In this document: piece after piece, positions 12,515 through 16,572 of the stretch
Position numbering within the stretch: the first letter of the stretch is position 1
Layout: the number at the start of each line of letters is the position of its first letter
Assembly: GCF_020991365.1 (NCBI RefSeq)
Contig: NZ_JAJLRA010000041.1
Location: 1-36,317 of the forward strand
DNA length: 36,317 bases
Source of the DNA: Streptacidiphilus sp. ASG 303
GTDB lineage: Bacteria > Actinomycetota > Actinomycetes > Streptomycetales > Streptomycetaceae
Reading direction: 5' to 3'
Notes under the pieces: model-generated
Told to the model about the DNA's origin: nothing
Seen by the model: the letters and a program-made list of their open reading frames with translations, nothing else
Databases searched by the model: none
Program-made: the position numbers and the translations under genes

Positions 12515-14152
12515 ATGGCATCACGTCGGGACGAGCTGAACGCGTACACGTTCGCGCGGCGCCGCACCGTGGGGGCGTTCCTCCAGCCCGCGGGGGGCGG
12601 CAGCGACGAGGACGCCCCGCGCCCGGTGCGGGCGGTGGTGCCCAGCCTGGTGGCGGCCGCCGTGGCGGTCGCCGGCTTCGGCATGTGGGGCATGATCAAG
12701 CCGGCCGCCCCCAAGGGGTGGGACGACGGGAAGTCGATCGTCGTGGGCAAGGAGTCCACCACGCGCTACGTGGTGCTCCCCAACCCTGACAAGCCGTCGG
12801 AGAGGACGCTCTACCCGGTCCTCAACATGGCCTCGGCCCGGCTCGTCCTCGACGCCGACTCCAAGGTGACCTTCGTCGAGGACAAGGTGCTCGACGCCTA
12901 CGGCCGCCACGGCGCCACCATCGGCATCCCCTACGCGCCGGACAAGCTGCCGACGCAGGCCCAGGCGGCGGAGGCCAAGGTCTGGACGGTGTGCGACCGG
13001 CCCGGCGACGACGCCAACCACACCACCGTCAACCAGGCGGTCTTCGTGCTCGACCCCGCGCACGCCGCGGCCCTGCGCAACCCGGGCCTCGTGCTGTCGA
13101 AGGGGAACGCCGCGTACGTGCAGGAGCCGGGCCCGGACGGCCAGGGCGGCGACGAGTACCTGGTGGACGCCGCGGGCGTCAAGCACAGCCTGGGCCGGCC
13201 GGACGCGCGCAACCAGGGCACCCTCACCCTGCGGACCGGCCTGTTCGGCCCCCAGGCCGCGCCGCAGCGGGTGACCCAGCAGTGGCTGGACACCCTCACC
13301 ACGGGCTCGCCCGTCGTCTTCCCCCGGATCCGGGACTACGGGCGCCGGTCCGCCGTCCGGCTGGCGAACCAGGCGGACTCCGTCGTCGGCCGGCTGATGT
13401 CCTTCGACTCCAACAACGACGGCCACCCCGAGGCCCACTACGTCGTCGGCGCGGACCGCCTGTACCAGCTGGACGACTTCCAGCTCCAGCTCTTCCAGAG
13501 CAACCCCGCGATCCAGCAGCTCTACGGCGGCCGGCCGGTCCCCGGCCAGCTCTCCGCGACCGAGCACGCCCGCTGGTCGGGGCCGGTGGGCAACGAGTAC
13601 CGGCTGCAGTCCCCGGCGGACTGGCCCAGGTCCCGTCCCAACGTGGCGGTCAACAGCACCGACCCCGACGGCGGCACCCGCAGCGTCCTGTGCAGCACCT
13701 ACTCGGGCACGGACGAGAAGGGCGCCCCCCGGCGGAGCGTGTGGGCCTCCACCGACTTCCCGGCGCCGGTCACCAACGGCACGGCCAGCGCCCACGTCAC
13801 CCCCGGCACCGGCCTGCTGTACCGGGCCGTGGAGGGGACCCCGGGCACCGGCGGCGCGGGCGCGGACGTCTCGGGCTCGGTTTTCCTGCTGACCGAGGCG
13901 GGCCTGCGCTACCGGGTGGTGGCCAACGGCGACAGCACGGCCAAGAGCTCGGTGCTGCCCCACGGCGGGCAGTCGCCCGACCCGGCGGCCCAGGGCCAGA
14001 CGCCCGGCCAGGCGCAGCAGGGCAACGACGCGCAGGCCAGGCTGGGCTACAAGGACGTGGTGCCGTCGATGGTGCCGAGGGCGTGGTCGGACCTGGTGCC
14101 CGCGGGGCCCAACCTGGACACCAGGTCGGCCCTGCAGCCGCAGACCTCCTGA
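12515..14152 (+). CDS. eccB: Type VII secretion protein EccB
   Basis: EccB is a core subunit of the ESX membrane complex, with one transmembrane helix and a large extracytoplasmic domain. The 545-aa product begins MASRRDELNAYTFARRRTVG, the conserved basic N-terminus; the ATG at 12515 has GGGAG 9 nt upstream, and the upstream in-frame GTG at 12458 adds nothing conserved. The single membrane helix is at about residues 41-61 (VVPSLVAAAVAVAGFGMWGMI). The outer domain contains repeated beta-rich segments and two cysteines, in VWTVCDRPG and RSVLCSTYSG, the pair that forms a disulfide in known EccB structures. It ends with a Gln/Pro-rich stretch and YKDVVPSMVPRAWSDLVP. A strong hairpin follows the stop. 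Confidence 0.95.
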   Translation: MASRRDELNAYTFARRRTVGAFLQPAGGGSDEDAPRPVRAVVPSLVAAAVAVAGFGMWGMIKPAAPKGWDDGKSIVVGKESTTRYVVLPNPDKPSERTLYPVLNMASARLVLDADSKVTFVEDKVLDAYGRHGATIGIPYAPDKLPTQAQAAEAKVWTVCDRPGDDANHTTVNQAVFVLDPAHAAALRNPGLVLSKGNAAYVQEPGPDGQGGDEYLVDAAGVKHSLGRPDARNQGTLTLRTGLFGPQAAPQRVTQQWLDTLTTGSPVVFPRIRDYGRRSAVRLANQADSVVGRLMSFDSNNDGHPEAHYVVGADRLYQLDDFQLQLFQSNPAIQQLYGGRPVPGQLSATEHARWSGPVGNEYRLQSPADWPRSRPNVAVNSTDPDGGTRSVLCSTYSGTDEKGAPRRSVWASTDFPAPVTNGTASAHVTPGTGLLYRAVEGTPGTGGAGADVSGSVFLLTEAGLRYRVVANGDSTAKSSVLPHGGQSPDPAAQGQTPGQAQQGNDAQARLGYKDVVPSMVPRAWSDLVPAGPNLDTRSALQPQTS

Positions 14153-14175
14153 CGTCCCGTCCGCCGTCCTTCTCG

Positions 14176-14218
14176 TGCCGGGCCGGGACCGCGCAGTGCC
14201 TGCGCTCCCGGCCCGGCA
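14176..14218 (+). terminator. Terminator after eccB
   Basis: TGCCGGGCCGGGA (14176-14188) pairs perfectly with 14206-14218, and an inner GCGCAG-TGC-CTGCGC hairpin (14191-14205) continues the stem. It starts 23 bases after the eccB stop, so the esx genes downstream are probably transcribed separately. Confidence 0.85.
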
Positions 14219-14312
14219 GGCCTTCTGACGGAAGGTCAGTCCCGGGTGTCCCCGGCCCCGCCCCGCCCGCCGCGCCGTCTGTCATGGTCCCGTAACCGTC
14301 CCGGGGGCGGTG

Positions 14313-14341
14313 TTGGGGGTGTCGGCGCCGAGGGCTAGAGT
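14313..14341 (+). promoter_or_regulatory. Promoter of the esx pair
   Basis: TTGGGG (14313-14318), 17 bp, then TAGAGT (14336-14341). The -10 matches the streptomycete vegetative consensus TAGRRT; the -35 shares only TTG. Transcription should begin near 14348, leaving an ~85-nt leader before the first Esx gene. Confidence 0.6.
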
Positions 14342-14349
14342 GCTCCTGG

Positions 14350-14366
14350 ACATCACGTCGTGATGT
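14350..14366. promoter_or_regulatory. 17-bp perfect palindrome at the esx transcription start
   Basis: ACATCACG-T-CGTGATGT is an exact 8+1+8 inverted repeat. It covers the first bases of the predicted transcript, where a bound protein would block initiation or early elongation. It is short for a terminator and AT-richer than its surroundings, as expected of an operator. The half-sites have the order TCAC...GTGA, the reverse of a BldD box. Confidence 0.65.
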
Positions 14367-14432
14367 TGACCGGGGGGGTCTGGGACCGCGGGCCGCCCGG
14401 CCAAGTCATCTGTCTCATGGGGGACGTGGAAC

Positions 14433-14744
14433 ATGTCGGGTCAGTTCAGGACCACCGCCGAGGAGATGCGTGCCTTCTCCGGCCGCATCGCCGAGGTCAA
14501 CTCGTCCATCCAGCAGGAGCTCAGCCGCCTGAACAGCCTGGTGAGCTCGATCACCGCCGGCTGGCAGGGCCAGGCCGCCACCGCCTACCACCAGCTCCAG
14601 GAGCGGTGGAACGAGGACGCGACCAAGCTCAACCGCGTCCTGGACGAGATCAAGCAGGCGATCGACGCCACCACGCAGCAGTACTCCGCGACCGAAGAGG
14701 ACCAGCGCTCGTCGCTGAGCAACGTCACCGCGCACTTCGGCTGA
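14433..14744 (+). CDS. WXG100 family type VII secretion substrate (EsxA/EsxB-like), first gene
   Basis: The 103-aa protein is a WXG100 helical hairpin: two long helices joined by a turn at GWQGQAATAYHQLQERW, where the W-x-G motif is seen. WXG100 proteins are exported by ESX systems as dimers and often act as carriers or are needed for substrate release. The C-terminal half carries the export signal YSATE (Y-x-x-x-D/E). There is no Sec signal peptide. ATG follows a GGGGGA purine run. The paired gene follows after 75 bases, so a heterodimer is likely. In S. coelicolor the homologous pair (esxBA) has been reported to be secreted and needed for normal sporulation; which of the two this gene represents is not decided here. 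Confidence 0.95.
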   Translation: MSGQFRTTAEEMRAFSGRIAEVNSSIQQELSRLNSLVSSITAGWQGQAATAYHQLQERWNEDATKLNRVLDEIKQAIDATTQQYSATEEDQRSSLSNVTAHFG

Positions 14745-14819
14745 CCGCTCGCCTCCGCCCGCTGAACCGCAGGCCCGCCACGGGCGGGCCGTGAAGAGCC
14801 TCTCGAACCAGGAGACGTC

Positions 14820-15116
14820 ATGTCCGACGGCCACATCCTCGTCAATTTCAGCACCATCCAGAACGCCGGCTCCGAGGTACGCTCCACCGCGGGCCGCGTC
14901 CAGCAGCAGCTGGACGACCTCAAGGCCGGCGTGCAGCGCATCGCCGCCAGCTGGGAGGGCAAGGCCCAGGAGGGCTACCAGGCCCGCCAGGCCGAGTGGG
15001 ACCGCTCCGCGGCCGACCTCCACCAGGTGCTGAACCAGATCGCCGGCGCGCTGGACAACGCCGCGCAGAGCTACCAGCAGACCGAGAACAAGAACGCCAG
15101 CATCTGGGGTCACTGA
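14820..15116 (+). CDS. WXG100 family type VII secretion substrate (EsxA/EsxB-like), second gene
   Basis: The 98-aa protein is the second WXG100 member, with the turn motif W-E-G in AASWEGKAQEGYQARQAEW and the export motif YQQTE near the C-terminus. It begins MSDGHILVNFSTIQNAG at an ATG preceded by GGAG (CAGGAGACGTC). It lies 75 bases after the first esx gene with no terminator between, and a 16-bp stem-loop follows its stop, so the two form a compact bicistron. Both partners have a YxxxE motif, so the sequence alone does not show which one carries the export signal of the heterodimer. Confidence 0.95.
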   Translation: MSDGHILVNFSTIQNAGSEVRSTAGRVQQQLDDLKAGVQRIAASWEGKAQEGYQARQAEWDRSAADLHQVLNQIAGALDNAAQSYQQTENKNASIWGH

Positions 15117-15130
15117 CCCCGGGCCTGCCG

Positions 15131-15166
15131 GTCAGGGGCGGACGCCCGAGGGCGTCCGCCCCTGAC
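15131..15166 (+). terminator. Terminator after the esx pair
   Basis: A perfect 16-bp stem (15131-15146 with 15151-15166) with a CGAG tetraloop begins 14 bases after the stop of the second esx gene. It should stop most esx transcripts before mycP. Confidence 0.88.
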
Positions 15167-15264
15167 GGCTGTGCGGACACGGGCCGGTCGGCACCGGCCG
15201 GCCGGTGCCGGCCGGCGGACGGGGACCGGCGGACCAGGACCTGGGCGGAAGAGGGGCGGTACGG

Positions 15265-16572
15265 GTGCGCAGGGGCAAGCAGGGGGAGGCCGGCCGTGCG
15301 CGGCGGGCCCTGGGGGGTGCCGCACGGCCCGCGGCCTGCGCCGCGGCCGCGCTCGGCGTGCTCGCGGGCGCGGCGGCCGCCCCCGCGGCGGCGGCCGGTC
15401 CGGCCGGGGGCGGGGACGCGCAGTGGTCGCCGCTGAGCCCGGCGGCCGCGGGCGAGTGCACCTTCCCGTCCGGGAACGTGGCGGCGGTGCCGTGGTCCCT
15501 CCAGCGGGTGGTCCTGGACCAGCTGTGGAGGAACGGCATCACCGGCAAGGGCGTCACCGTCGCGGTGGTCGACACCGGTGTCGACGACGCCAACCCGCAG
15601 CTCCGGGGCGGCAAGGTGCTGCCCGGCGAGGTGCTGCTGACCGACCCGCAGACCAGGAAGCCCGCCACCGGTGGCGCCACGCTGGACCCGGTCGGCCACG
15701 GGACGAAGGTCGCCGGGATCATCGCCGCCCGCCGCAGCCCGGCGACCGGCTTCGTCGGCCTCGCCCCGGACGCGCGGATCCTGCCCATCCGGCAGAACGA
15801 CAGCGAGGGCAGCGGCGACGTCAAGACCCTCACCCGGGCGATCCAGGACGCGGTGAAGGCGCACGCCCAGGTCATCAACATCTCGCAGGACGTCCGCGCC
15901 GGCACCGCGTCGGGCCTCTTCGCCGGCCAGGCCGAGCTGCACCAGGCGGTCCGGTGGGCCGTCTCCAAGGGCGTCGTCGTGGTGGCCTCCTCCGGCAACG
16001 ACGGCAAGGACGCCCCCACCTACCCGGCGGCGTTCCCCGAGGTGATCGCCGTCGGCGCCTCCGACCGCAACAACGAGCGGGCGTCCTTCTCCCAGTACGG
16101 CCCCTTCGTCGACGTCGCCGCCCCCGGCGTGGACATGCTCTCCACCGTGCCCCGCGGCGGCCAGTGCACGGACAACGGGACCAGCTTCTCCGCCCCCTAC
16201 GTGGCGGGCGTCGCGGCCCTGCTCAAGCAGAAGTACCCGCAGTGGACGCCCGCGCAGATCGCCGCCCGCATCGAGCAGACCGCGCAGCGCAACCGCCGCG
16301 ACCGGGACGACTTCACCGGCTGGGGCGTGGTCGACCCGGTGAAGGCCGTCACCTCCGACGCCCCGCCGGCCGCGGCCGCCGTGCCCGACCCGCAGACCGT
16401 GCTGGCGGCCCGGCCCGTCGCCGCGCAGCCGCTCACGCTGGGGGAGTCCCGGGCCGACCGCGACCGCCGCACCGCCACCTACGTGCTGGGCGCCGGCCTG
16501 CTGGGGGTGCTCCTCCTCGGCGGCGGCTCGGTGGTGCTGCGGGACCACCGCCGGCGCCGCCCGACCGCCTGA
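15265..16572 (+). CDS. mycP: Type VII secretion-associated serine protease mycosin
   Basis: Mycosins are membrane-anchored subtilisin-like (S8) proteases on the outer face of ESX complexes; they are needed for secretion and complex stability. The catalytic triad is visible as D103 (VVDTGVD), H145 (GHGTKVAG) and S307 (NGTSFSAPYVAG), with ASSGND for the oxyanion region. The N-terminus is a signal peptide: basic RRGKQGEAGRARRAL, a hydrophobic Ala-rich core, and a likely cleavage near AAAAGPAGG. A C-terminal membrane helix (VLGAGLLGVLLLGG) is followed by the basic anchor RDHRRRR. The GTG at 15265 has GAGGGG 8 nt upstream; a GTG at 15205 in frame would put 20 poorly conserved residues before the signal peptide. 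The protein is 435 aa, the usual size. Confidence 0.95.
   Translation: MRRGKQGEAGRARRALGGAARPAACAAAALGVLAGAAAAPAAAAGPAGGGDAQWSPLSPAAAGECTFPSGNVAAVPWSLQRVVLDQLWRNGITGKGVTVAVVDTGVDDANPQLRGGKVLPGEVLLTDPQTRKPATGGATLDPVGHGTKVAGIIAARRSPATGFVGLAPDARILPIRQNDSEGSGDVKTLTRAIQDAVKAHAQVINISQDVRAGTASGLFAGQAELHQAVRWAVSKGVVVVASSGNDGKDAPTYPAAFPEVIAVGASDRNNERASFSQYGPFVDVAAPGVDMLSTVPRGGQCTDNGTSFSAPYVAGVAALLKQKYPQWTPAQIAARIEQTAQRNRRDRDDFTGWGVVDPVKAVTSDAPPAAAAVPDPQTVLAARPVAAQPLTLGESRADRDRRTATYVLGAGLLGVLLLGGGSVVLRDHRRRRPTA

Follow-up and report, generated by a model that had tools for sequence, protein, structure and literature searches.

Stem-loops at the very 5' end of bacterial mRNAs, for which that of ompA gives the type, are known as stabilising elements, and leaders in which a hairpin sequesters the Shine-Dalgarno sequence form a class of translational control. 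To our knowledge, the control of type VII secretion substrates has been little explored outside the mycobacteria. Passages of one article (PMC7509114) describe the ability of 5' stem-loops to stabilise bacterial mRNAs and name those of Acinetobacter recA and Helicobacter vacA; a section of another (PMC3997798) deals with 5' roadblocks against the exonuclease RNase J1 in Bacillus. Among the cis-regulatory RNA motifs of Rfam, those of actinobacteria (mraW, msiK and others) are listed in part of a third (PMC2864571). The main text of this 2010 list of candidate structured RNAs contains neither ESAT nor WXG nor "type VII", and "esx" does not occur in the main text, tables aside, of a transcription map of S. 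coelicolor (PMC4681348). A search of the literature by title and opening of the abstract, with few subscription journals covered, returned no paper on an esx leader RNA.

The locus considered here carries a candidate structured 5' leader of an esx operon, which has no match in Rfam and is of a known general kind. The window (the whole stretch of 36,317 nucleotides that was analysed) contains, in this order and as identified by Pfam, EccB, two WXG100 proteins and a subtilase; the gene calls of the initial annotation, with EccB ahead of a pair of esx genes coding for WXG100 proteins, were thus right. The features to which the text refers are the following:

14177 to 14217, + strand: large inverted repeat after eccB, terminator-like, without a T run (arms read; fold of 14165-14235)
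14313 to 14318, + strand: -35 element TTGGGG (read from the sequence)
14336 to 14341, + strand: -10 element TAGAGT, 17 nt after the -35 element (read from the sequence)
14349 to 14367, + strand: hairpin P1, GACATCAC-GTC-GTGATGTT, containing the palindrome at 14350-14366 (covariation, G.U excess, fold)
14370 to 14400, + strand: hairpin P2, with an outer stem of CCGGG (14370-14374) and CCCGG (14396-14400) and an inner stem of 14377-14382 with 14389-14394 (minimum-energy fold)
14412 to 14425, + strand: hairpin P3, GTCTC-ATGG-GGGAC (GTCTCATGGGGGAC), near-invariant, able to fold over the presumed ribosome-binding sequence
14419 to 14424, + strand: presumed Shine-Dalgarno sequence GGGGGA, 8 nt before the start codon (sequence and conserved position; putative function)
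14433 to 14744, + strand: first esx gene, termed esxB, coding for a WXG100 protein of 103 aa (P0001; Pfam PF06013, E 4.3e-22)
14820 to 15116, + strand: second esx gene, coding for a WXG100 protein of 98 aa (P0002; Pfam PF06013, E 1.6e-20)
15131 to 15166, + strand: large inverted repeat after the esx pair, terminator-like, without a T run (arms read; fold of 15115-15185)

With the stabilising stem-loops of the ompA type (PMC7509114, in the passages cited) this leader shares a hairpin in the 5' UTR, which in the esx case lies at the predicted first bases, ahead of the gene for a secreted product. It differs from them in adding two further hairpins, the last of which lies over the presumed ribosome-binding site, and in having been seen only at the esx genes of one family; stabilisation is here a predicted role. 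Like the leaders that sequester a Shine-Dalgarno sequence, it has a segment, GUCUC, that can pair with a GGGAC overlapping the GGGGGA; however, the stability of P3 is only moderate (-4.0 kcal/mol for its core of 14 nt, -7.6 kcal/mol with the extension present in Kitasatospora) and we found no switching partner for it. With mraW, msiK and the other Rfam motifs it has in common that it is a candidate structured RNA arising from actinobacterial comparative genomics (PMC2864571, in the part cited), but unlike them it matches no Rfam family. The Rfam 15 covariance models gave no match at gathering score at six loci, and the relaxed scans returned three matches in the window at 14150-14900 and two over 14 loci, all far below the gathering scores.

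The palindrome contained in P1, ACATCACG-T-CGTGATGT, or ACATCACGTCGTGATGT when written in full, is perfect over its 17 bp (14350-14366) and is separated by 8 nt from the end of TAGAGT. Sequence, coordinates and spacings of the -35 element, the -10 element and the palindrome, as given in the initial annotation, all proved exact on re-reading and by exact match. From the position of the -10 element, esx transcription is predicted to start at about 14348-14349. That the palindrome sits at the predicted start of an esx promoter was borne out, and this promoter is conserved: TGTTGGG followed 14-22 nt on by a TANNNT box is found by script count in 70 of 91 esxB upstream regions, and TAVAGT occupies the -10 place in 78 of the 91. 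A consensus scan of 13900-15300 listed no promoter by its sigma-70 consensus.

The 91 leaders come from 99 genomes with an esxB match at E<=1e-30, 90 of them fetched and nine unfetched, to which L042 was added; L037-L041, from the search that gave L042, were dropped as duplicates. Six leaders with no -10 element in the scripted range were left out of the alignments. Among the remaining 85, GTCTCATGGGG is held by 80, or 54 once near-duplicates are removed. Alignment A1 is made of 41 of these 54, and alignment A2 of eight of the other 13 together with the near-duplicates L062 and L084 (ragged ends); L087, L091, L094, L096 and L099 are in neither. For the counts of hairpins after the -10 element and of predicted pairing, five leaders were added to the 85, and 85 of the resulting 90 hold GTCTCATGGGG.

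P1 (-8.2 kcal/mol for 14349-14368) is well kept among the 41 aligned leaders, where 95.4% of cells are paired and four of the eight pairs have changed on both sides. Its place is taken in genera g10 and g7 by a helix of other sequence (GGCGTC-7-GATGCC, for example), two of whose six pairs are doubly changed. The start of the helix lies 6-8 nt beyond the -10 element in 27 of the 32 distinct perfect hairpins, a constancy that is expected if the helix is tied to the transcription start. Of 90 family esxB leaders, 79 are predicted to form a strong hairpin that begins 4-12 nt beyond the -10 element, as against 121 of 450 base-shuffled leaders.

P2 was chosen by us from single-sequence folds and is absent from the RNAalifold consensus of A1, which holds P1 and P3. 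Its outer stem has four of six pairs changed on both sides in the 41 leaders, with 84.1% of cells paired, and its Watson-Crick pairs have changed 14 times to other mismatches and five times to A.C versus 12 times to G.U. When P1, P2 and P3 are scored jointly in the 41 leaders against shuffles, which related sequences can exceed without any structure, 46 cells are doubly changed versus 16.3 (none of 500 shuffles reaches 46), and the covariation score is 0.203 versus 0.143 (none of 500), with 0.031-0.085 in slid registers. With the same reservation about shuffles, coarser measures are weaker: eight pairs are doubly changed versus 5.4 (12 of 500 reach eight), and further pair types number 21 versus 19.3 (81 of 500 reach 21). 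The covariation terms of RNAalifold are weak (-0.53 for A1, +0.34 for A2), and the window's own leader folds no better than its shuffles (z -0.32). As comparison among relatives shows, P1 and P2 change in the way that RNA helices would, downstream of a conserved promoter.

P3 behaves differently. Loop included, it is identical in 40 of the 41 rows of A1, which represent genera g1, g3, g4 and g14, and because it hardly varies it gives almost no covariation evidence. The exact 14-mer is present in 119 of 394 family genomes, versus none for a reversed-pattern control, and is found there at 123 places, 109 before an esxB and 14 not. The figure of 109 combines 79 places identified by script in the fetched leaders, eight for which coordinates were compared by eye in the unfetched genomes, and 22 of 36 others assigned by tblastn. 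Second matches in three Peterkaempfera genomes (L137-L139) do not adjoin an esxB and are taken as chance. As would be expected of a leader that sequesters its Shine-Dalgarno sequence, pairing of the presumed ribosome-binding sequence is predicted, with an ensemble mean above 0.5 in 77 of the 85 leaders that hold GTCTCATGGGG. The pairing of P3 itself exceeds 0.5 in only 46 of these 85; it is 0.90 in the leader of the window and 0.12 in each of its two congeners, in which the site is taken up by other pairings.

Two observations concern the same segment. Several leaders (L048, L088, L164 and L170) keep CATGGGGGA right before the start codon, at the place that corresponds to 14419-14424 in the window, in the absence of the GTCTC arm; CATGGGGGA therefore seems constrained beyond its pairing in the hairpin. 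An upstream open reading frame beginning at the ATG inside P3 (ATGGGGGAC) was considered and rejected: translated at 20 loci, it runs at the esx loci into esxB out of frame, and both its length and its product differ.

Taken by itself, the palindrome does not clearly exceed chance. Perfect 8-1-8 palindromes number 10 in the window, where 3.4 are expected at 75% GC, a count that would suit a chance palindrome devoid of function; it is position and conservation that lift this one above chance. The palindrome is letter-identical in all three genomes compared of Peterkaempfera, the window's genus, while the flanks differ in parts. One of the three (G002) yields the same stretch of contig as L037, a record of P. 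griseoplana, which NCBI assigns to the Streptomycetaceae. Its place at the promoter is moreover conserved, with compensatory change, in other genera, and a meaningless repeat is for this reason hardly credible. The initial annotation had viewed the palindrome as a candidate operator, to be abandoned if close relatives failed to conserve it, which is not what the three genomes show. According to this proposal, the palindrome would be bound in its double-stranded form by a dimeric repressor, which at the start site would block RNA polymerase. A perfect 17-bp dyad that covers the predicted start and is identical in the three genomes of the genus is what such a protein might recognise. Yet the spacer between the half-sites, which in an operator should be constant over orthologous promoters, ranges from 3 to 8 nt (the P1 loop in the 32 distinct perfect hairpins), and the arms change in compensation. 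The departures from pairing are also not neutral as to strand. Reconstructed by simple parsimony on the tree of the esxB reading frame, and with small counts, the changes of Watson-Crick pairs in P1 comprise 21 to G.U, six to A.C, six double changes and five to other mismatches. The inner six pairs account for 13 of the changes to G.U versus a single one to A.C, and five of the six A.C events sit in the two outermost pairs (one-sided sign tests: 0.003 over all pairs, 21 of 27; 0.0009 over the inner six, 13 of 14). Because in double-stranded DNA G.T and A.C are one and the same change seen on opposite strands, such an excess argues against an operator; a helix kept through compensatory changes and with G.U tolerated is what one looks for in a 5'-terminal stabilising stem-loop of an RNA. 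Further copies of the core, TCACGNCGTGA, which the annotation had suggested seeking in the genome, are at chance level (five sites versus 4.6 expected), although an excess is not obligatory for an operator. The full site has in the 7.0 Mb genome one other occurrence within three mismatches, with three, and none within two. Covariation of the half-sites, which had been put forward as a sign of an operator, does exist, but it cannot separate the two possibilities, since an RNA hairpin predicts it too. A palindrome at a start site can thus be a feature of the RNA, and half-site covariation alone proves no operator. When the second compensating helix in the leader is added to the variable spacer, the strand asymmetry and the chance-level number of copies, an operator at this site appears very unlikely, and the pattern of change of P1 across relatives seems to suit an RNA hairpin more than a repressor-binding site in the DNA.

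The palindrome is probably the DNA image of P1, a hairpin formed by the bases with which the esx mRNA begins and the first of three in the leader, with P1 shielding the 5' end and P3 tuning or gating translation. Transcription would start at the P1 stem or one base before it. Such a start would leave the esx mRNA with little or no single-stranded 5' end, and the paired end would shield the message from 5'-end-dependent decay. At the other end of the leader, P3 would pair the GGGGGA ribosome-binding sequence with the conserved GUCUC. Translation initiation would then compete with P3, and since initiation must open the hairpin, the amount of Esx protein could be tuned or gated. With the hairpin to account for it, the palindrome is explained with no need for a dimeric DNA-binding repressor. 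In accompanying esxB and preserving its helices through changes of sequence, the leader offers a concrete, testable point of post-transcriptional control. One may speculate, with considerable reserve, that the esxB leader of the Streptomycetaceae represents an unnamed family of cis-regulatory RNAs, whose three hairpins, including the near-invariant one at the ribosome-binding site, adjust the production of type VII substrates post-transcriptionally, perhaps according to the state of secretion.

A more elaborate form of control can be envisioned, in which the three-hairpin RNA would bind a ligand or a protein (an Esx dimer, a part of the secretion machine or a ribonuclease, for instance) and switch P3 in such a way that substrate synthesis follows secretion. 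The near-identity of P3 and its loop over four genera exceeds what a ribosome-binding site alone would need, and 109 of the 123 places where the motif occurs are esxB leaders. A sensor of this sort is nonetheless unlikely, given that the aligned leaders display no conserved unpaired core other than the P3 loop, that P1 and P2 have loops of variable sequence and length, and that no Rfam family is matched. It is also worth considering that the leader might be cut off to become an independent small RNA of some 80 nt, as its compactness and its own predicted promoter could suggest. We regard this as highly improbable, however, for at the same 109 places the motif is joined to esxB, the presumed ribosome-binding site forms the end of the unit, and among the 150 candidates scored, of 20827 from its own genome, model R1 matches one copy, the esx leader itself. 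This single match also speaks against a regulon of the leader.

The leader measures about 84 nt and accompanies the first esx gene in Peterkaempfera, in Kitasatospora and in several related genera of the Streptomycetaceae. The exact P3 14-mer is missing from 11 of the 91 leaders: L078 and L079, which have small changes, and nine leaders of genus g10 (L048, L049, L053, L056, L060, L065, L088, L089 and L093), which have neither the GTCTC arm nor the standard P1. A structural variant is seen in L087, L091, L094 and L096, where the P3 motif is kept and a different, longer 5' stem-loop lies near the predicted start. The comparison also took in 12 of 23 matches from wider genera and distant paralogues within the family. 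In L176 and L165 among them, a P3-like hairpin is kept and another hairpin folds at the 5' end; these two divergent genera maintain the arms of P3 while other bases change (GGGAU in L176, loop ACAGG in L165), which lends support to P3 as a hairpin. L166 and L167 have a hairpin after a TANAGT-like box and no P3, and another seven of the 12 bear no clear likeness to the leader. One wider genus (L164) keeps P1 and loses the 5' arm of P3. The other WXG100-like match in the window's own genome (L008) has no such leader in the 300 nt read. Outside the family, a more distant esxB-like match (f30) is present in three of 246 genomes of the class, and the leader is found with none of the three. A search of 197 genomes of the order with model R1 gave four matches; its stricter filters missed known copies (G055 and G082 carry the P3 motif), so that it says little about range. 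In genome G013 of genus g12, two copies of esxB lie on opposite strands about 0.53 Mb apart and have identical leaders (L154 and L155), which suggests a recent duplication of the esx locus in that genus.

Lastly, the initial annotation had placed terminators after eccB and after the esx pair, and had deduced from them that the pair appears to be controlled apart from the secretion machine. The inverted repeats at these two places are indeed very strong (-47.6 and -52.9 kcal/mol for the folded stretches 14165-14235 and 15115-15185), but both are devoid of a T run, and a consensus terminator scan of 13900-15300 gave no terminator on the + strand and listed neither of them. Because repeats of this strength flank the esx pair, its separate transcription is plausible; of the initial interpretation, it is the operator that is disfavoured. 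The repeat at 15131-15166 is long and nearly uninterrupted, and exemplifies terminator-like repeats that lack a U tract. Another perfect inverted repeat, GGCCCGCC-ACG-GGCGGGCC, lies between the two esx genes at 14772-14790 and may form an intercistronic stem-loop.
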